DNA from: Anaerolineales bacterium
GTDB lineage: Bacteria; Chloroflexota; Anaerolineae; Anaerolineales; Villigracilaceae
Direction of reading: 5' to 3'
DNA: 50,878 nt
Assembly: GCA_017882145.1 (NCBI GenBank)
Contig: JADGQB010000004.1
Location: 1-50,878, forward strand
Position 1 is the first letter of the stretch. Each line of letters opens with the position of its first letter. A program made the position numbers and the translations under genes. Under the pieces are notes generated by a model. The model worked only from the letters and a program-made list of their open reading frames with translations. It had not been told where the DNA came from and did not search any database. This document shows, piece after piece, positions 16,713 to 25,084 of this stretch.

Positions 16713-18473
16713 TTACTTTGATTTACTCAACTCTGAGTAGAAGAACAGGATGTCCGGACCGATATTCAGGTTTTCGGGCTGGGCGTTGTTGGCATCGCCC
16801 TTGATGTTGCTTCTATACACGATATGCTCTGCATTGAAGAACAACGGCACCGTGACTACCAAATCGGCATACAGGTTCTGCGCCTGCTTGTATAGGTCGG
16901 CGCGTTTGGTCAGGTCGGTCTCGATATCGGCTTGGTTCAGGAGTGCAACCAGTTGTTTGGCCTTATCATTGATCGGAGTGCCGGTCAGACTGCCGGTGGC
17001 AGGGATTGTAACGTTGGTACCTTCACCGCGATTGAAGACGAATGGGTCAAGATAGTTGGAGGGGTCCGGGTAATCGAAGAACCAGCCCAGCACGCCAGCT
17101 CCATAGGACTTGCCGCCGGTCAGTGCAGGAACGTAGGTGCTCCATTCCTGGGAAGTCAGGGTAACCTGGATCTCTCCAGTGGCTTCGAGTTGGGTCTTAA
17201 TGAGCTGCATCCAGGCCGCGGTAGAAGCGCCGTAGTGCTCGGGTGGGTACCACATCTCAAGCTTAACTGGATTCGTGGCTGAGTAGCCAGAGGCTTCCAG
17301 ATACTTCTTGGCCTGGTCAACGTTCGGAGCGGAATACATGGTATCGAAGGATTCGTCTGCGCCCAGGAAGCCGGGTGGAATCATCGAATAGAGCGGGGTA
17401 ACCTGTCCAGCGTAGACAGTGTCCGCAATCGCGTTGCGGTCTACTGCCGAGGCAATGGCTTTGACGACATTCGGATCATCGTATGGTTTTATGGTGTGAT
17501 TGAGAACCAGGTAGCGGATCGAACCACCATTAATCGCTCCAACGGTCAAGCCGCTGACTTTCTTGAGCGAGGTGAGTTGGTCCGGCGAAAGGATACGCCA
17601 GGCAACATCAACCTCGCCGCTCTGGACGGCCAGAGCCATGGTATTGGGATCCGAGTAGAAGCGAACAATGATCTGCTTCACCTGCGGTTTCAGTGGGCCG
17701 GTGTAATACGGATTGGGCAAGAGCACCATTTGTTCGTCCGCGTTGTACTGCGAGATGTACCAGGCGCCCACTCCGTAAACCGGGGCGGTTGGGAACAGGT
17801 TGCATGCATCGGCTTTGAAGGTTTTTGGATCGGTGGCGACGTACGGACCACCGGCCAGGATCTGCGGGAAGAACGCGATCGGGGTCGTTAGTTGGAAAAC
17901 AATGGTCTTATCGTCCGGAGCGGTGATGCTCTTTACATACGGGACGGCCAGGGTATCGGCGACATCATTCGGACACTTAGGCCCGATGGTGAGCAGGCGA
18001 TTTAGCTGTGCAGCATAAATGGTGGCGGTCAATGGGGTGCCATCACCGAATTTAATTCCGTCTCTTAGTGTATAGGTATAGGTCAAACCATCCGGAGAAA
18101 TCTTGCCCATATCAGTGGCCAGATCAGGCGCCAGGTCTGTGGTGCCTGGCTTCATGTACACGAGGCCGTCGCTAATGTTTCGGAGAATTTCCCAGTCGTG
18201 GGTTGCATAGGCGTCCGCCGCATCCAGGCTGGCGAGCTTATCGGTTGTACCGATGATAATGGTATCCGGATTGGAAGCCGCAGGCGGAGTCGTGGCTACC
18301 GGTGCAACGGTTGCCGGTGCGGCAGTTGCAGGAGCGACGGTCGCGGGAGCGGCGGTCGCTGGGGGTTGGGTTGCCGGGGCAACAGTGGGTGTCGCGGCGG
18401 TTCCACAAGCGGACAAAATCATACTTGCCACCACTAACAGGGCGGCGGCAACAAACAGTCTTTGGCGATTCAT
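16713..18473 (-). CDS. oppA: ABC transporter substrate-binding lipoprotein, family 5 (peptide-binding)
   Basis: Lipobox LVVASMILSACG, Ala/Pro/Thr linker, 'GDGTPLTATIYAAQLNRLL', 'DEQMVLLPNPYYTGPLKP', 'LVLNHTIKPYDDPNVVKAIASAVDRNAI'. Confidence 0.92.
   Translation of the reverse strand: MNRQRLFVAAALLVVASMILSACGTAATPTVAPATQPPATAAPATVAPATAAPATVAPVATTPPAASNPDTIIIGTTDKLASLDAADAYATHDWEILRNISDGLVYMKPGTTDLAPDLATDMGKISPDGLTYTYTLRDGIKFGDGTPLTATIYAAQLNRLLTIGPKCPNDVADTLAVPYVKSITAPDDKTIVFQLTTPIAFFPQILAGGPYVATDPKTFKADACNLFPTAPVYGVGAWYISQYNADEQMVLLPNPYYTGPLKPQVKQIIVRFYSDPNTMALAVQSGEVDVAWRILSPDQLTSLKKVSGLTVGAINGGSIRYLVLNHTIKPYDDPNVVKAIASAVDRNAIADTVYAGQVTPLYSMIPPGFLGADESFDTMYSAPNVDQAKKYLEASGYSATNPVKLEMWYPPEHYGASTAAWMQLIKTQLEATGEIQVTLTSQEWSTYVPALTGGKSYGAGVLGWFFDYPDPSNYLDPFVFNRGEGTNVTIPATGSLTGTPINDKAKQLVALLNQADIETDLTKRADLYKQAQNLYADLVVTVPLFFNAEHIVYRSNIKGDANNAQPENLNIGPDILFFYSELSKSK
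18290..18400 (-). repeat. Degenerate short tandem repeats encoding an A-P-A-T-[AV] linker
   Basis: Repeated 'gcggttgcaggagcgacggtcgcgggagcggcggtcgc' units encode PATQPPATAAPATVAPATAAPATVAP after the lipoprotein Cys. Confidence 0.7.
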
Positions 18474-18590
18474 ACTTGCTCCTCTCGAGTCATTTCTAAT
18501 GGTTGAGACAATGAATATGGTAGAACAAACTAACTATGTATCCTATGCTCGTGCCTCCTTTCATTTTTGTAATAAAAAAGATAATTATCC

Positions 18591-18618
18591 ATTATACGCT
18601 TCATGAAAGAGATGTCAA
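18591..18618 (-). promoter_or_regulatory. Perfect-consensus sigma70/SigA promoter for the opp operon
   Basis: Minus strand TTGACA-N16-TATAAT, about 110 nt upstream of the oppA-like ATG. Confidence 0.75.
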
Positions 18619-18686
18619 GTAAACTTCGTATATCTTTAATTTTCCAATAAGGCTGGCCTCATACTTATGTATCAGACTGATTAGCA

Positions 18687-18716
18687 TTGACATATCGCCT
18701 GCTTCAATGATAAACT
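18687..18716 (+). promoter_or_regulatory. Putative SigA promoter of leader module L1
   Basis: TTGACA-N18-TAAACT (N16 with GATAAA), 42 nt upstream of a micro-ORF with a strong SD. Confidence 0.55.
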
Positions 18717-18757
18717 CGGAACCGTTAATAGAATTCTAAGGAAAGGAGGCGCACTTC

Positions 18758-18850
18758 ATGATGGTTAAGAGTACAGTTCGAATCATTCGAATCCGCATCA
18801 ATGCTGTTTCTGGTGTGGTTTTGCCTACGCGTAGTGCGCCTGCTGACTGA
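18758..18850 (+). CDS. Micro-ORF (leader peptide candidate L1): MMVKSTVRIIRIRINAVSGVVLPTRSAPAD
   Basis: ATG preceded by AAGGAAAGGAGG at good spacing; 30 codons ending at TGA 18848-18850 inside a perfect hairpin, followed by an intrinsic terminator. Confidence 0.6.
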   Translation: MMVKSTVRIIRIRINAVSGVVLPTRSAPAD

Positions 18851-18859
18851 TAAGTCAGC
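18842..18859 (+). promoter_or_regulatory. Perfect 7-bp hairpin overlapping the L1 micro-ORF stop codon
   Basis: GCTGACT-GATA-AGTCAGC. Confidence 0.7.
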
Positions 18860-18876
18860 CAAGTTCGTCGCTTTGA

Positions 18877-18907
18877 CCACGGTGCACTCCCTGCACCGTG
18901 GTTTTTT
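18877..18907 (+). terminator. Intrinsic terminator in the leader of the ABC exporter operon
   Basis: CCACGGTGCA-CTCCC-TGCACCGTGG-TTTTTT, ending 26 nt before the exporter ATG at 18934. Confidence 0.85.
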
Positions 18908-18933
18908 GTCTGGAATATATAGAGAGAATAATT

Positions 18934-20769
18934 ATGGCTGTCATCGCTCCCCCCAAAACTTACTTTGATTTCCGCAAAGCTGTGACGAAGAATAAACTGG
19001 TTGGCTTGTGGCGGATGATGCCCGATTACCGGCTGTCCTACGCGGCTGCCAACCTGTCTTTGGGTATCTCGGCACTGGCAAAAATGACTACGTACCTGTT
19101 ATTACGGAATTTTGCCGATACGATCCTGGGGACCACCCAACCCTTTGCTGGCACCCTTACCCGAACCCTTATCCTGATCGCAGCTGGATTTGTTGTCCTG
19201 GCGCTATTTGAAGGCGGGTTCGCGTTCCTGTCTGGGCGCCTGGCGGCCTACTCGGCTGAAGGCATTACCCGCCGGTTTCGGAATTTCCTCTATGACCATA
19301 TCCAGAGGCTAAGCTTTGCCTATCACAGTAAAACTCCCACCGGCGACTTGATCGAACGGGTCACATCCGATATGGATGCAGTGCGTGGATTCTTCAACGA
19401 GCAAGCCATCGGGGTAGGCCGCATCATTGCGTTATTCGTCATCAACTTTCTCGCCATTCTGGACCTAAGCTGGAAATTGGCGCTGGCCTCCATTGCGGTG
19501 GTGCCGGTCATCCTGGTAGTTTCATTGTGGTTCTTCAAGAAGGTAACCAAAGCCTACGAGGCTTACCAGGAACAGGAAGCGATACTTTCAACCACTCTTC
19601 AGGAGAACCTGACGGGTGTTCGTGTTGTCAAAGCCTTTGCCCGGCAGGATTACGAAAAGGAAAAGTTCGAGAAGGATAATCTGGAAAAATTCCTGCGCGG
19701 ACGGAAGTTCATCAGGATGCATTCGCTTTTTTGGCCGCTCTCGGACCTCGCCTGTGGTTTCCAGATGCTGGTTGGATTTGTTTTCGCAGCCTATTTGGCT
19801 ATTCATGGTGAGATTTCCGTAGGGACTTACCCTGCCTATGTTGGTCTTGTAGTCTGGTTGATCTGGCCAATGCGTAACTTGGGCAGGCTGGTTGTTCAGA
19901 CTTCGACCGGATTGGTATCCTACGAGCGCCTGATGGAAATTGTCAGGCAGGAGCGTGAACCTCTCTCAGATGGCAAAATCCAGCCAGAAGGTCCGGTGGA
20001 TGGTCAGATCATCTTCGAAAATGTTTCGTTCCAATACGAAGATGGGAATAATGAGGTGCTTAAAGACATCTCATTCAGTTGCCAGCCTGGCCAGGCGATT
20101 GCGTTGCTGGGCTCAACCGGATCCGGCAAAACCTCTCTCGTAAATCTGCTTCCGCGTTTCCATGATTACACGGATGGACATATCCTTCTGGATGGCGTGG
20201 AACTGAAAGACTACTCGCGTGAGTACCTGCGCCGGCAGATAGGCATCGTCGAACAGGAGCCTTTCCTGTTCAGCCGTTCGATCGGCGAGAATATCATGTA
20301 TGGTGTCGACCGCCATGTTCCACAGGAAGAAATTGAAAAAGCCGCCAGAGCGGCCGCCGTCCATGATGTAATCTGTTCCTTCCCGGATGGCTACAACACG
20401 CTGGTAGGCGAAAAAGGCGTGACACTTTCCGGTGGACAAAAACAGCGTGTGGCGGTAGCACGCACCCTGCTCAAGAATCCGCGCATTCTTATCTTGGATG
20501 ATTCTACATCTTCCGTGGATACTGAGACTGAAGCAGAAATCCGTACTGCCCTGGATGGGTTGATGAAGAACAGGACCACTTTCATCATTGCCCATCGTAT
20601 CCAGTCGGTTATGAATGCCGATCTGATCCTGGTTATGGACAAAGGCGCCATTATCCAAATGGGCCGTCACGCAGATCTGGTTGCCCAAAAAGGTATGTAC
20701 CGGCAGATCTATAACATTCAGACTCGCATCGACGAGGAATTGGAAACGGAAATTGCTTCTGTAAATTGA
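18934..20769 (+). CDS. Heterodimeric ABC exporter subunit 1 (TM domain plus NBD, non-canonical Walker B)
   Basis: Walker A GSTGSGKTS, signature LSGGQKQRVAVA, Walker B ILILDDSTSSVD (D in place of catalytic E). ATG at 18934 preferred over the ORF start at 18898, which lies within the terminator. Confidence 0.93.
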   Translation: MAVIAPPKTYFDFRKAVTKNKLVGLWRMMPDYRLSYAAANLSLGISALAKMTTYLLLRNFADTILGTTQPFAGTLTRTLILIAAGFVVLALFEGGFAFLSGRLAAYSAEGITRRFRNFLYDHIQRLSFAYHSKTPTGDLIERVTSDMDAVRGFFNEQAIGVGRIIALFVINFLAILDLSWKLALASIAVVPVILVVSLWFFKKVTKAYEAYQEQEAILSTTLQENLTGVRVVKAFARQDYEKEKFEKDNLEKFLRGRKFIRMHSLFWPLSDLACGFQMLVGFVFAAYLAIHGEISVGTYPAYVGLVVWLIWPMRNLGRLVVQTSTGLVSYERLMEIVRQEREPLSDGKIQPEGPVDGQIIFENVSFQYEDGNNEVLKDISFSCQPGQAIALLGSTGSGKTSLVNLLPRFHDYTDGHILLDGVELKDYSREYLRRQIGIVEQEPFLFSRSIGENIMYGVDRHVPQEEIEKAARAAAVHDVICSFPDGYNTLVGEKGVTLSGGQKQRVAVARTLLKNPRILILDDSTSSVDTETEAEIRTALDGLMKNRTTFIIAHRIQSVMNADLILVMDKGAIIQMGRHADLVAQKGMYRQIYNIQTRIDEELETEIASVN

Positions 20770-20812
20770 TTTGGCAAGGTACAGCATGGCTGCACCTTGC
20801 TGGAGATAAGAA

Positions 20813-22642
20813 ATGGCCGATGAATTGATTGAAATCGAAGAAGAAGAATATACCAGTCAATTGACTGGGCCGACATTTGCCCGTATCGCTGCCCTGGTAA
20901 AACCGCATTGGCGCTGGATGGCCGGATTCTTGACCGCCATCGTTGTGACAGCCGCTTTGGATGCTTTTTTTACTTACATTAATAAGCTCATTATTGACAA
21001 CGGGATTGTCCCTGGAAACTTCAACCTGGTATTGAAATATGCTGTCTATTATGGCGGTATCCAACTGGTTCAATCCGGTTTGGTGTTTACGTTCATTTAC
21101 CTGGTCGGCATCCTGGGCGAGCGCATCCAGTACGATTTGCGCAAGTCCACTTTTAATCACCTGCAGGATCTTTCACTTTCCTACTACAGCCAGAACGCGG
21201 TTGGCCGATTGATGGCACGTGTCACATCCGATTCTGGACGTGTTTCGAACCTGATGACCTGGGGCTTATTGGACGTCACCTGGGCAATTGTGAATGTTCT
21301 CACGTCCACGATCTTCATGTTGATTATCAACTGGAAATTGGGATTGATCGTGTTCAGCATTATCCCGATCCTGGTGATCATCGCAGTTAACTTCCGCAAG
21401 AAGATCCTGACGGAATTCCGCAAGTCCCGTCGAAACAACTCGAAGATCACTGGCGAATATAACCAGAACTTCCAGGGCGTGCGTGTGGTCAAGGCTCTTG
21501 GCCGGGAAGAGGAAAACCTGCGGGAATTCTCGATCCTTACCGATAACATGTTCCGCGCCAGTTACCGGGCTGCCTGGTTGTCAGCTCTATTCCTGCCAAC
21601 AGTACAGATCATATCTGCCTTTGCGCTGGGTGCCATCGTCTGGTACGGTGGGCTGCAGAGTCAATATGGCGCGTTTACCGTTGGTTCCATCAACGCTTTC
21701 GTCTCCTACCTGACCTTTATGATCTGGCCGATCCAGGATCTGGCGCGTGTATATGCTGAAATGCAGCACTCCATTGCCTCCGCTGAGCGGATCTTCAAAC
21801 TGATCGATACTCCTCCCGAGGTACAGGACCGTCCAGAAGCGCTCTCTGCTGATACAATCCGCGGAGAAATCGAATTCGAGCACGTGGATTTCTACTACGA
21901 GGACCGGAAACCAATCCTGACCGATTTTTCTTTGAAGGTCAAACCTGGTGAGACGATCGCCCTGGTCGGTCCAACCGGCGGTGGCAAGACCACCATCGTT
22001 AACCTGTTATGCCGCTTCTATGAGCCGAAGAATGGCATCATCCGCATCAACGGGCACGACTACACGGATTACACCATGCAAAGCCTGCAATCGCGCGTCG
22101 GCATTGTGCTCCAGACACCGCATTTGTTCTCCGGGATGATCCTCGAAAACATTCGCTATGGCCGTTTGGATGCTTCCGATAGCGATGTAGAACAGGCTGC
22201 GAAAGTCGCCGGGGCACATGAATTCATCGCATCCTTCGAGAAAGGCTATGCCCAGGATGTGGGTGAAGGCGGCAACCTGCTTTCAGTTGGACAAAAGCAG
22301 CTTATCAGCCTGGCGCGCGCCGTTCTGGCCAAACCCGAGATCTTCATTATGGACGAGGCAACTTCAAGCGTCGATACCCTGACGGAAGCACTGATCCAGC
22401 GCGGTATGGAAGCCCTGATGCAGGGGCGCACATCTTTTATCATCGCCCATCGTTTGAGCACCATACGCCGGGCTGACCGGATTGTCGTGATCGAGGCAGG
22501 TGGCATCGCCGAGATGGGTACGCACGCCGAGTTACTACGCCAGCGCGGCCATTATTACCGCTTGTACACACAACAGTTCAAGTTCGAAAAAGAACGGGCA
22601 TATGGTGTGTCAATGCCGGGCGTGGTGCCGGTAATCAAGTAA
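20813..22642 (+). CDS. Heterodimeric ABC exporter subunit 2 (TM domain plus NBD, non-canonical signature)
   Basis: Walker A GPTGGGKTT, signature LSVGQKQLISLA, Walker B IFIMDEATSSVD, H-loop FIIAHRLST. Confidence 0.93.
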   Translation: MADELIEIEEEEYTSQLTGPTFARIAALVKPHWRWMAGFLTAIVVTAALDAFFTYINKLIIDNGIVPGNFNLVLKYAVYYGGIQLVQSGLVFTFIYLVGILGERIQYDLRKSTFNHLQDLSLSYYSQNAVGRLMARVTSDSGRVSNLMTWGLLDVTWAIVNVLTSTIFMLIINWKLGLIVFSIIPILVIIAVNFRKKILTEFRKSRRNNSKITGEYNQNFQGVRVVKALGREEENLREFSILTDNMFRASYRAAWLSALFLPTVQIISAFALGAIVWYGGLQSQYGAFTVGSINAFVSYLTFMIWPIQDLARVYAEMQHSIASAERIFKLIDTPPEVQDRPEALSADTIRGEIEFEHVDFYYEDRKPILTDFSLKVKPGETIALVGPTGGGKTTIVNLLCRFYEPKNGIIRINGHDYTDYTMQSLQSRVGIVLQTPHLFSGMILENIRYGRLDASDSDVEQAAKVAGAHEFIASFEKGYAQDVGEGGNLLSVGQKQLISLARAVLAKPEIFIMDEATSSVDTLTEALIQRGMEALMQGRTSFIIAHRLSTIRRADRIVVIEAGGIAEMGTHAELLRQRGHYYRLYTQQFKFEKERAYGVSMPGVVPVIK

Positions 22643-22656
22643 ATAATACTAATCCC

Positions 22657-22697
22657 CATCCCGCAGGTTCGACTTCTCAAACTTGCGGGATGTTCTT
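22657..22697 (+). terminator. Probable terminator after the ABC exporter genes
   Basis: CATCCCGCAGGTT...AACTTGCGGGATG (13 bp with one G:U), short pyrimidine tail. Confidence 0.5.
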
Positions 22698-22714
22698 CAA
22701 AACCAGGAGAGCTC

Positions 22715-23500
22715 ATGGATGCCACCAGCAAGATCAATCGCGAACGTTGGAACGCCTTGGCACAAGCCAATGTTGAATACTCCCGACCGTTCCTGGATTT
22801 TACTGTTGAAAATGCCGCTGAACATGTTTATCGACATGGGATCTTAAAAGATGTTGCCGGCAAGCAGGTTCTTTGCCTGGCCAGCGGCGGCGGACAGGAT
22901 TCGGTTGCTTTTGGGATGCTGGGAGCCCATGTCACTGTGCTGGATCTTTCCGATGTTCAGTTGGAACGCGATCGCCAGGCATCAGACCACCATGGGCTTC
23001 AGACCAGGCTGATTCAGGGTGACATGCGCGACCTTACGATCTTCCCGGATAACCAATTCGATATTGTCTGGCAAATCTATTCGATCAATTTTGTCCCATC
23101 GCTGGATCCGGTCTTCAGCGGAGTCCGGCGGGTGCTAAAACCAGGTGGGATCTATTTCCTGCAGTTCGCAAATCCTTTTGCCATTGGCATTGATGATCAA
23201 AAATGGAACGGAAATGCATTCCCTTTGAACAGCCTGTATATTGAAGGTGAAGATATGTCCGGTCGCTTCCCAAATTGGGATGTTGAACAACCAGATGGAA
23301 CCAGGCTTGTTTGTGCCAGCCCGCATGAATTTCGCCACACCCTGGGTAATGTGATGAATTGCATGGCAGGCAACGGCTTTATTCTGCTTGGTTTGTGGGA
23401 ATGGATGAAGGAAGAAGATGATCCACAGCCCGGTTCCTGGGCGCATTACACTCAGGTCATTCCGCCATGGTTCAGCACCTTCTGGAGGCTGGAGAAATAA
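22715..23500 (+). CDS. Class I SAM-dependent methyltransferase
   Basis: 'GKQVLCLASGGGQDSVAFGMLGAHVTVLDLSDVQLERDRQ', 'NQFDIVWQIYSINFVPSLDPVFSGVRRVLKPGGIYFLQ'. Confidence 0.92.
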   Translation: MDATSKINRERWNALAQANVEYSRPFLDFTVENAAEHVYRHGILKDVAGKQVLCLASGGGQDSVAFGMLGAHVTVLDLSDVQLERDRQASDHHGLQTRLIQGDMRDLTIFPDNQFDIVWQIYSINFVPSLDPVFSGVRRVLKPGGIYFLQFANPFAIGIDDQKWNGNAFPLNSLYIEGEDMSGRFPNWDVEQPDGTRLVCASPHEFRHTLGNVMNCMAGNGFILLGLWEWMKEEDDPQPGSWAHYTQVIPPWFSTFWRLEK

Positions 23501-23510
23501 TTAGGATCAG

Positions 23511-23540
23511 AAAAAGGCGTCCCACATGGAACGCCTTTTT
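23511..23540. terminator. Bidirectional intrinsic terminator between convergent genes
   Basis: AAAAAGGCGT-CCCACATGGA-ACGCCTTTTT. Confidence 0.85.
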
Positions 23541-23547
23541 CTATTGA

Positions 23548-24573
23548 TTATTTTGCCTGCTCATTCCGTTTCCAGAATTTAAGATCGCCCGGGTTATCTG
23601 CATCCAGCAGCCGGGGATGAACCTCCGGCCTTAAATGGTACCCATGTGCAGTCCAAAGCTCTGCCGCCAGTCGTTGCGGTTTGAGCAAAAGCCCCTGCCT
23701 GATGAAATACTCACACAATCGGGTTATATCGCGTTCGAAAATGGCATACGCGTTCCGGTTGTGTTCGGGCGAGACCACTTGCGGGAAATCGATCAGTGAG
23801 ACCTTCCCTTCCCAATATAGAACGTTATAAGCCGACAGGTCACCGTGCACATGCCCGTGCGTAAGCAGGATATCCAGATCCTGTTTCAAGCGGGCGAAAA
23901 GTTGACCGGCTTCTTCCCGATCGAGGCTTACATCGTTGAGTGTTGGCGCAGGCATCGCCAAATTACCTACATAATCCATCAGAATGGCATTATGTGCCAT
24001 CTCATAAGGTTGTGGAACGTCCGCACCGGCTTCGAAAAGGGTCTGCATGGCAGTATACTCATGCGCGATCCAGGATTGGTGCCGGACCTCCTCCCCGTAG
24101 CGAGAACGTGTCAAAACGGCATGGATGGAGCCTTCATCGTGCAATTCACGTCCATCTTCATCCAAATCCGTCCGGCCTTCCCGGTAAAGATGATCGTCGC
24201 GCAAGTTGCGCAACATGCGCGGCCGGTACACCTTCGCAGCGACAAGTTGAGCCTCCACTTGTTCTCCCGCCCGACACAAGTATACGGAAGCTTCCTTTCC
24301 AGCCTTGATCTTAAGTAAAACGTCAGATATCCATTTCTGCTCGTAAAAATAACCAAGTGAATCCAACAGCCAGCCTTCCTCAAAGCGGGCGGCTTTGTAG
24401 GTATAAGCGAAAGTGTGGCGGCTGTCGTCCTGCTTTTGGACGAATTGCTGGATTGCGGCAGGGATCTGTTTTGGGTTGCGCCTCGGAAGGTATTTACGGC
24501 CAGTGTCCGGTAGTTCGAATTGGCCCTCATTATCGAGCTCATCATAATATTTGATATTTTTACTTGAATCCAT
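23548..24573 (-). CDS. RIO-family serine/threonine protein kinase
   Basis: 'KAGKEASVYLCRAG...LVAAKVYRP', 'HGHVHGDLSAYNVLYWEGKVSLIDFPQVV'. Start set at MDSSKNIKYYD (24573; 24591 also possible); the ORF-track start at 24663 lies upstream of/inside the hairpin. Confidence 0.85.
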   Translation of the reverse strand: MDSSKNIKYYDELDNEGQFELPDTGRKYLPRRNPKQIPAAIQQFVQKQDDSRHTFAYTYKAARFEEGWLLDSLGYFYEQKWISDVLLKIKAGKEASVYLCRAGEQVEAQLVAAKVYRPRMLRNLRDDHLYREGRTDLDEDGRELHDEGSIHAVLTRSRYGEEVRHQSWIAHEYTAMQTLFEAGADVPQPYEMAHNAILMDYVGNLAMPAPTLNDVSLDREEAGQLFARLKQDLDILLTHGHVHGDLSAYNVLYWEGKVSLIDFPQVVSPEHNRNAYAIFERDITRLCEYFIRQGLLLKPQRLAAELWTAHGYHLRPEVHPRLLDADNPGDLKFWKRNEQAK

Positions 24574-24638
24574 AAGAGAGACTCTCTTCATACTGAATGC
24601 GGAAATAATCTCTCGCCCTGGGCTGTCTAGAATCAAAA

Positions 24639-24661
24639 GCCGCAGGCGTTGCGCCTGCGGC
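24639..24661 (-). terminator. Intrinsic terminator-like hairpin in the RIO-kinase leader (L2)
   Basis: Minus strand GCCGCAGGCG-CAA-CGCCTGCGGC-TTTTGATT, 10-bp perfect stem with short T-run. Confidence 0.65.
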
Positions 24662-24683
24662 AAGATAATACAATGATATCAAA

Positions 24684-24749
24684 TCAACTGTAACCTTGCA
24701 CAGGAGGCGCGTTCAACACAAGCAGATTGGCCAATTTGTTTTCCGACAT
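24684..24749 (-). CDS. Micro-ORF (leader peptide candidate L2): MSENKLANLLVLNAPPVQGYS
   Basis: ATG preceded by GGAAAGGAGG (9 nt spacing); 21 codons plus TGA, followed by the 24639-24661 hairpin; upstream region homologous to L1. Confidence 0.6.
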   Translation of the reverse strand: MSENKLANLLVLNAPPVQGYS

Positions 24750-24793
24750 GGCTTTCGAGCCTCCTTTCCAAGTGAATTCTACTAACAACTGCG

Positions 24794-24822
24794 AGTCTAT
24801 CACCTGCAAAGCATACCGTCAA
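24794..24822 (-). promoter_or_regulatory. Putative SigA promoter of leader module L2
   Basis: Minus strand TTGACG-N17-TAGACT; -10 region and downstream sequence align with L1. Confidence 0.55.
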
Positions 24823-24904
24823 GTTCCGTGCTCACAAAAAAATATCTAACGGTACGTACGCAAAAGAATAAAAATTAGCGCATAAGTCGCGCGGATGAGG
24901 CGGC

Positions 24905-25084
24905 TTATACCTGATGCTTCTGATTTATGTCTGCTTGCAGGTCATGCAGGCGCTCCAGCCGCCTGGCTGCAAGCACCAATGAACAGCCAAGTTCTGCAAA
25001 TTGGCGGGCAAATTCTGCCCCCAATCCCCTGGAAGCACCGGTAATAAGAGCTGTTTTCCCTTGCAAATTCGTTTTTATAGTCAC
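24905..25084 (-). pseudogene. Truncated short-chain dehydrogenase/reductase (N-terminal Rossmann segment only)
   Basis: GTG-initiated 59 aa VTIKTNLQGKTALITGASRGLGAEFARQFAELGCSLVLAARRLERLHDLQADINQKHQV*; TGASRGLG motif present, remainder of SDR absent. Confidence 0.75.

Follow-up and report, generated by a model that had tools for sequence, protein, structure and literature searches.

Predicted ribosome-controlled transcription attenuators upstream of an ABC exporter and a RIO kinase belong to a leader family widespread in Anaerolineae

We analyzed a 50,878-nucleotide stretch of DNA from an Anaerolineales bacterium (Chloroflexota; contig JADGQB010000004.1), hereafter called the window, which is one whole contig of a 4.15-Mb, 448-contig genome with an estimated completeness of 87%. 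Two leaders in the window precede unrelated genes: L1 lies upstream of an ABC exporter and L2, on the opposite strand, upstream of a RIO-domain kinase (Table 1). Both contain a promoter, an extended Shine-Dalgarno sequence (SD), a micro-open reading frame (micro-ORF), and a terminator. Our analysis indicates that L1 and L2 are very probably ribosome-controlled transcription attenuators, which would turn on genes that counteract inhibitors of translation. A first-pass annotation of the window had proposed that they are instances of one regulatory module, and our comparisons bear this out. The leaders share a 29-mer identical at 23 of 29 positions (the six differences being five transitions and one G/C transversion), which is followed after 3 or 4 nt by an identical GGAAAGGAGGC. 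As the annotation described, micro-ORFs of 30 (L1) and 21 (L2) codons come next, then a strong hairpin with a T-run and the main ORF, whose ATG is located ∼26 nt beyond the L1 hairpin (18934) and ∼61 nt beyond the L2 hairpin (24573). The reported GC-rich hairpin is thus present, but that account of it was partial, as the hairpin would serve as the terminator of a three-state switch. Judging from sequence comparison, a deeper RNA architecture is conserved, in which the SD, an anti-SD element, and the terminator 5′ arm are mutually complementary.

We searched 100 relatives with the two downstream proteins; of the 101 genomes including our own, 29 carry the RIO kinase and 82 the ABC exporter. Leaders of the same design could be parsed upstream of 60 exporter and 26 RIO kinase orthologues in the 100 relatives. 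A recurrent 5′ layout is found upstream of most orthologues (TTGAC-N17-TGATAAACT, then GAAAGGAGG(C/-)GCAC.. and an ATG), and TTGAC-N17/18-TGATARACT, as in the L1 promoter, also precedes most ABC leaders of relatives. The 3′ layout is likewise recurrent and comprises a short ORF, with GCGCC(T) close to the ORF end, followed by a spacer and an intrinsic terminator that has an SD-like GGCGC or GGTGC in its 5′ arm. The design is not universal: no leader of this kind is seen at a minority of loci, chiefly the most distant ones (e.g. L084, L088, L089, L091, L095, and L096).

Three helices compete for these elements: P1 (SD with the anti-SD near the micro-ORF end), AT (anti-SD with the terminator 5′ arm), and P3 (the terminator itself). 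We assessed them in MAFFT alignments of 59 ABC leaders (A2), 25 RIO leaders (A1), and 48 leaders from all gene classes (A3); the alignments were not fitted to structure, and the structures were drawn from them by eye. In A2, P1, P2 (a hairpin overlapping the leader stop codon in L1), and P3 together are paired in 88.5% of alignment cells, with two-sided changes in 18 of 26 pairs and a covariation of 0.265 versus at most 0.092 in slid controls, our slid and shuffled controls preserving composition or relatedness but never both together. Individually, P1 and P3 are paired in 94 and 93% of A2 cells, and 9 of the 10 P3 pairs show two-sided changes; AT is paired in 92.2% of cells, compared with 63.2% at most in slid controls. 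The RIO leaders of A1 give 91.2% for P1 and P3 combined (86% for P1, mostly with one mismatch, and 99% for P3) and 89.5% for AT. In the mixed alignment A3, P1 and P3 are paired in 90.7% of cells, 15 of 17 pairs have two-sided changes, and covariation reaches 0.375 versus at most 0.124, while the AT covariation is equaled by 1 of 500 shuffles. Comparative evidence thus supports P1, P3, and AT as well as the mutual exclusivity of antiterminator and terminator, for which covariation is clear in A2 and A3 and not in A1. P1 takes the part of an anti-antiterminator. Many RIO leaders (L005, L007-L012, L017-L019, and L023) have a second, similar terminator hairpin, CCGCAGG..CCTGYGG-T, 40–60 nt past the first, forming tandem terminators.

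A translatable leader ORF with its own SD lies between promoter and terminator, and by the same comparisons it is a regular part of the design: of 145 leaders, 140 have the anti-SD within the ORF, and the stop codon follows it at a median distance of 13–22 nt. We calculated partition functions for the intermediate transcript, before synthesis of the terminator 3′ arm, masking the SD and the first codons to mimic a stalled ribosome. AT then forms with a median probability of 0.98 in ABC leaders and 0.91 in RIO leaders, whereas in unmasked, ribosome-free intermediate transcripts P1 and AT compete. The dominance of AT when the SD is masked, together with the position of the ORF, points to the following attenuation scheme. 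Transcription would start just upstream of the SD, from a promoter that we presume to be active. With no ribosome loaded, the SD would pair with the anti-SD (P1), P3 could form, and the gene would be off. Normal translation of the micro-ORF would bring ribosomes over the anti-SD, stopping shortly past it, so that P3 would again form and the gene would remain off. Should a ribosome be delayed or halted in the early part of the micro-ORF, as might happen under a ribosome-targeting drug, it would instead cover the SD and prevent P1; the free anti-SD would then pair with the terminator 5′ arm, P3 would be precluded, and read-through would allow the exporter or the RIO kinase to be made. Stalling would thus be the signal and drug exposure the probable inducer, and the products would presumably be protective.

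We built covariance models from RIO leaders (R1), ABC leaders (R2), and all leaders (R3) and found the module in 59 of 101, 83 of 101, and 31 of 37 genomes, respectively, so the two leaders in the window are not an isolated chance match. The models yielded ∼80 further leaders. We fetched 60 loci other than the two original genes and classified them by BLAST clustering and by Pfam/NCBIfam scans of representatives. At 56 of the 60, the first downstream gene encodes a GNAT acetyltransferase (28), an ABC protein (16; ABC exporters, DrrA-like ATPases, and one ABC-F), the GTPase RsgA (7, usually followed by an RNHCP-domain gene), or an MFS efflux pump (5). Comparative evidence thus places these genes in one regulon. 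In our own genome, R3 recovers L1, L2, a leader before RsgA-RNHCP on contig C116 (E = 7e-11), and, weakly, one before an ABC-F gene on contig C15 (E = 1.5e-4). The C116 leader (L193, C116:1000-3800) has a P1 of 10 bp and an AT of 12 bp, with sequences unlike those of L1 and L2. The C15 locus (L301, C15:7300-9740) is tentatively a fourth family member in this genome; its TATAAT box almost abuts the leader ATG, suggesting a leaderless micro-ORF. By grouping the RIO kinase with RsgA and drug-resistance genes, the leaders link it to ribosome stress, and the kinase may act in translation stress. One relative has the order leader, RsgA, RIO kinase (L210, G039:C71:129500-132140), an array that ties the bacterial RIO kinase to small-subunit assembly. 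At five loci (L157, L160, L165, L171, and L172) a tandem-GNAT gene with leader is followed by a small ORF and a HAD-type hydrolase gene, possibly a drug-modifying operon.

Comparative evidence further indicates that the family is widespread in Anaerolineae. In a class-wide sample, 64 of 298 genomes from many families are positive. A phylum-wide sample gave 27 positives among 301 genomes, two of them outside the class, where the leaders lie upstream of a GNAT gene and an ABC exporter gene. When GTDB species were scanned for an exact pattern, 79 stretches were returned, all in records titled Chloroflexi or Anaerolineae or in apparently mislabeled metagenome-assembled genomes. L244 and L289, for instance, are Anaerolineae-type leaders in such assemblies titled ‘Chthonomonas calidirosea’ or ‘Chloroflexus sp.’, titles that look misnamed.

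Several observations weigh against the attenuation scheme. AT covariation in the RIO leaders (A1) is no better than in shuffles, and at equilibrium ribosome-free RIO leaders often prefer AT over P1, so that an off state without ribosomes would require kinetic formation of P1. L301 has no visible SD. The early leader ORF has no conserved stall codon or arrest motif, and 124 of 145 leaders encode Ala-Pro in frame 0 at the anti-SD. The last point raises the alternative that what is sensed is not a general slow-down of ribosomes but drug- or peptide-specific arrest by the nascent leader peptide (..R-S-A-P-V-D.. or ..A-P-P..), of the kind known from ErmBL and MsrDL; the in-frame, C-terminal Ala-Pro recurs in leaders of different gene classes. 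We consider this unlikely, because a ribosome arrested at Ala-Pro would cover the anti-SD and favor termination, the wrong sign for induction. In addition, some leaders, such as L049, L050, and those of RsgA, use a different frame, which alters the peptide and keeps the RNA element, identifying RNA pairing as the firm constraint; pairing alone accounts for much of the conservation. The leader peptide may have an additional role besides RNA pairing.

The annotation had also taken the resemblance of L1 and L2 as a sign of a duplicated or mobile regulatory cassette, the two being recent copies of one element moved between genes. Their similarity from the −10 region to the SD is indeed high, and TAGAATTC-N(1-8)-GGAAAGGAGG, a form of the motif that the annotation had suggested for a search, occurs at two places in the 4.15-Mb genome (L1 and L2 only) and in 0 of 60 relatives; it is therefore not a generic repeat, nor does it serve as a signature of the family. 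As a search pattern for the family, this motif was rejected: when the spacing was fixed and up to three mismatches were allowed, L2 was the only match, and variable spacing recovered L1 and L2 alone. Much of the similar stretch is promoter (TGATARACTCG) plus extended SD, the string between promoter and SD lacks conservation even among the closest RIO leaders, and the shared GTTARTAGAATTC is not the defining feature of the family. When all leaders are compared pairwise, the nearest neighbor shares the downstream gene in 59 of 60 ABC and 24 of 26 RIO cases. L1 is closest to ABC-exporter leaders and L2 to RIO leaders of other genera, L2 ranking only ∼129th among the L1 matches; L1 reaches 125 bits against the ABC model, compared with 26.6 against the RIO model, which in turn gives 93 for L2. 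Leaders thus cluster by downstream gene and not by genome, as expected if each has long been tied to its gene and not if L1 and L2 are recent copies. We found no flanking repeats or insertion sequence-like structure in positions 18400–25000. Recent duplication or mobility is therefore very unlikely. On this comparative evidence, the module is old and class-wide and for the most part stays with its gene. The shared frame and shared 5′ consensus make it plausible that all leaders descend from a common ancestor; convergence on the same three-way code is conceivable too.

Two further mechanisms fare even less well. A trp/his-like attenuator, with stalling at regulatory codons when charged tRNA is short, would share the ribosome-terminator logic and the leader ORF, but we hold it to be highly improbable: no run of regulatory codons is conserved, the early codons are mixed (Ile 11%, Val 10%, Thr 9%, Phe 9%, Trp 0.1%, His 1.6%), and the targets are efflux, acetyltransferase, and ribosome factors instead of biosynthetic enzymes or tRNA synthetases. 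A ligand-binding riboswitch or protein-binding leader with an incidental ORF, suggested by a conserved, structured leader ending in a terminator, can be given scarcely any weight, as there is no compact aptamer-like core, the region from ATG to anti-SD varies in length and sequence while SD, ATG, and open frame are kept, and Rfam offers no match.

Table 1. Leaders, their parts, and downstream genes in the window
Feature	Position	Strand	Sequence or description	Remarks
L1 leader	18687-18907	+		Precedes ABC exporter
L1 promoter	18687..18716	+	−35 TTGACA 18687-18692; extended −10 TG-A-TAAACT 18708-18716	Read in sequence
L1 extended SD	18739..18757	+	GGAAAGGAGG plus CGCACTTC	Pairs with anti-SD
L1 SD arm (5′ arm of P1)	18747-18755	+	AGGCGCACT
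L1 leader ORF	18758..18850	+	30 codons, MMVKSTVRIIRIRINAVSGVVLPTRSAPAD	SD-ATG-ORF into or through anti-SD in nearly all homologues
L1 anti-SD/antiterminator element	18833..18841	+	AGTGCGCCT	Complementary to SD 18747-18755 and terminator 5′ arm 18881-18888
L1 hairpin P2	18842..18859	+	GCTGACT-GATA-AGTCAGC	Overlaps leader stop codon; all 7 pairs change on both sides in A2
L1 intrinsic terminator P3	18876..18907	+	ACCACGGTGCA-CTCCC-TGCACCGTGGT-TTTTT	Pair counts; minimum free energy fold
L1 terminator 5′ arm segment	18881-18888	+	GGTGCACT	AT partner of anti-SD
ABC exporter subunit 1	18934..20769	+	611 aa, ABC_membrane and ABC_tran	Pfam
ABC exporter subunit 2	20813..22642	+	609 aa	Probable heterodimer partner
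L2 leader	24822-24635	-		Precedes RIO kinase
L2 promoter	24794..24822	-	−35 TTGACG 24822-24817; −10 TAGACT 24799-24794; spacing 17	Read in sequence
L2 extended SD	24750..24769	-	GGAAAGGAGGCTCG	5′ arm of P1 AGGAGGC-T-CG 24765-24756
L2 leader ORF	24749-24684	-	21 codons, MSENKLANLLVLNAPPVQGYS
L2 anti-SD/antiterminator element	24702..24711	-	CGCGCCTCCT	Complementary to SD; GCGCCT pairs with AGGCGC of terminator 5′ arm 24656-24651
L2 intrinsic terminator P3	24635..24661	-	GCCGCAGGCG-CAA-CGCCTGCGGC-TTTT	Pair counts; minimum free energy fold
RIO-domain protein kinase	23548..24573	-	341 aa	Pfam RIO1, E = 5.9e-34

Among structures in the PDB, relatives of exporter subunit 1 include YheH (BmrD) of BmrCD, TM_0288, and a TmrAB-type chain. 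The RIO kinase resembles archaeal Rio1 structures, and its NCBIfam match to the PA4780 type is below cut-off. A class I methyltransferase ORF (22715-23500, + strand) directly follows the second exporter gene, possibly as part of the exporter operon, and converges on the RIO gene; an inverted repeat (23509-23542) separates the two.

The kind of mechanism is already known. Compared with Rfam and the open-licence literature, the RNA family, the three-way code built on the SD of the leader itself, the regulon-wide spread in Chloroflexota, and the link to a bacterial RIO kinase are apparently new. The annotation knew of no named family with this layout, and we find none either: at gathering score, 0 of 4227 Rfam families match in the window, and at E ≤ 1 nothing relevant is found at the L1 and L2 loci. 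Our search of the open-licence literature turned up no link of Chloroflexi or Anaerolineae to leader-peptide attenuation of such genes and none of RIO kinase to upstream ORFs (uORFs). For a large phylum whose members are mostly uncultured, our work provides a computational model of an attenuator family that is apparently undescribed and maps its regulon. It also offers a way into the function of bacterial RIO kinases, an example of a regulon that consists solely of repeated cis-attenuators, and a means of predicting uncharacterized resistance genes (GNATs and exporters) from their leaders.

As in trp-type attenuators, ribosome position would choose between antiterminator and terminator, but the Chloroflexota leaders have no regulatory codons and serve different targets. 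A close parallel in which this logic has been demonstrated is bmrB-bmrCD of Bacillus subtilis: there, antibiotics that target the ribosome induce a heterodimeric ABC exporter, and they do so through ribosome-mediated transcription attenuation that needs leader translation (PMC4191407). Both systems place a leader ORF, a terminator, and an alternative antiterminator (with a predicted anti-antiterminator in bmrB) upstream of an ABC multidrug exporter, heterodimeric in B. subtilis and probably so at L1, and the L1 exporter matches the YheH/BmrD chain among solved structures. The bmrB ORF has 53 codons with the stem-loops inside it, whereas the Chloroflexota leaders have 19–34 codons with the terminator after the stop; their anti-antiterminator, unlike that of bmrB, is supplied by the SD of the leader itself, and a single design is used for many gene families. 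In Firmicutes, attenuators control ABC-F and HflXr resistance genes (VmlR, PMC9226507; MsrD, PMC10314930; HflXr, PMC6310831; uORFC-6-1 motif, PMC8632094), and the passages concerned describe a similar arrangement of a short uORF and terminator before ribosome-protection or ribosome-recycling factors. They deal with other taxa and single genes and report no three-way code of SD, anti-SD, and terminator.

In Actinobacteria, a uORF attenuator of the WhiB7/WblC regulon senses translation inhibition and drives one transcription factor, which activates the remaining genes (PMC7157823). Comparison with that regulon reveals a very similar gene content of translation-inhibitor resistance functions, namely ABC proteins, Gcn5-type acetyltransferases, MFS pumps, and ribosome-associated GTPases (PMC7157823), but each Chloroflexota target carries its own attenuator in cis. 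We tentatively suggest a decentralized translation-stress regulon, in which a cis RNA code might do for Chloroflexota what WhiB7 does for Actinobacteria, and in which the RIO kinase, twinned with RsgA, might be an inhibitor-induced small-subunit factor parallel to archaeal and eukaryotic Rio1/Rio2.

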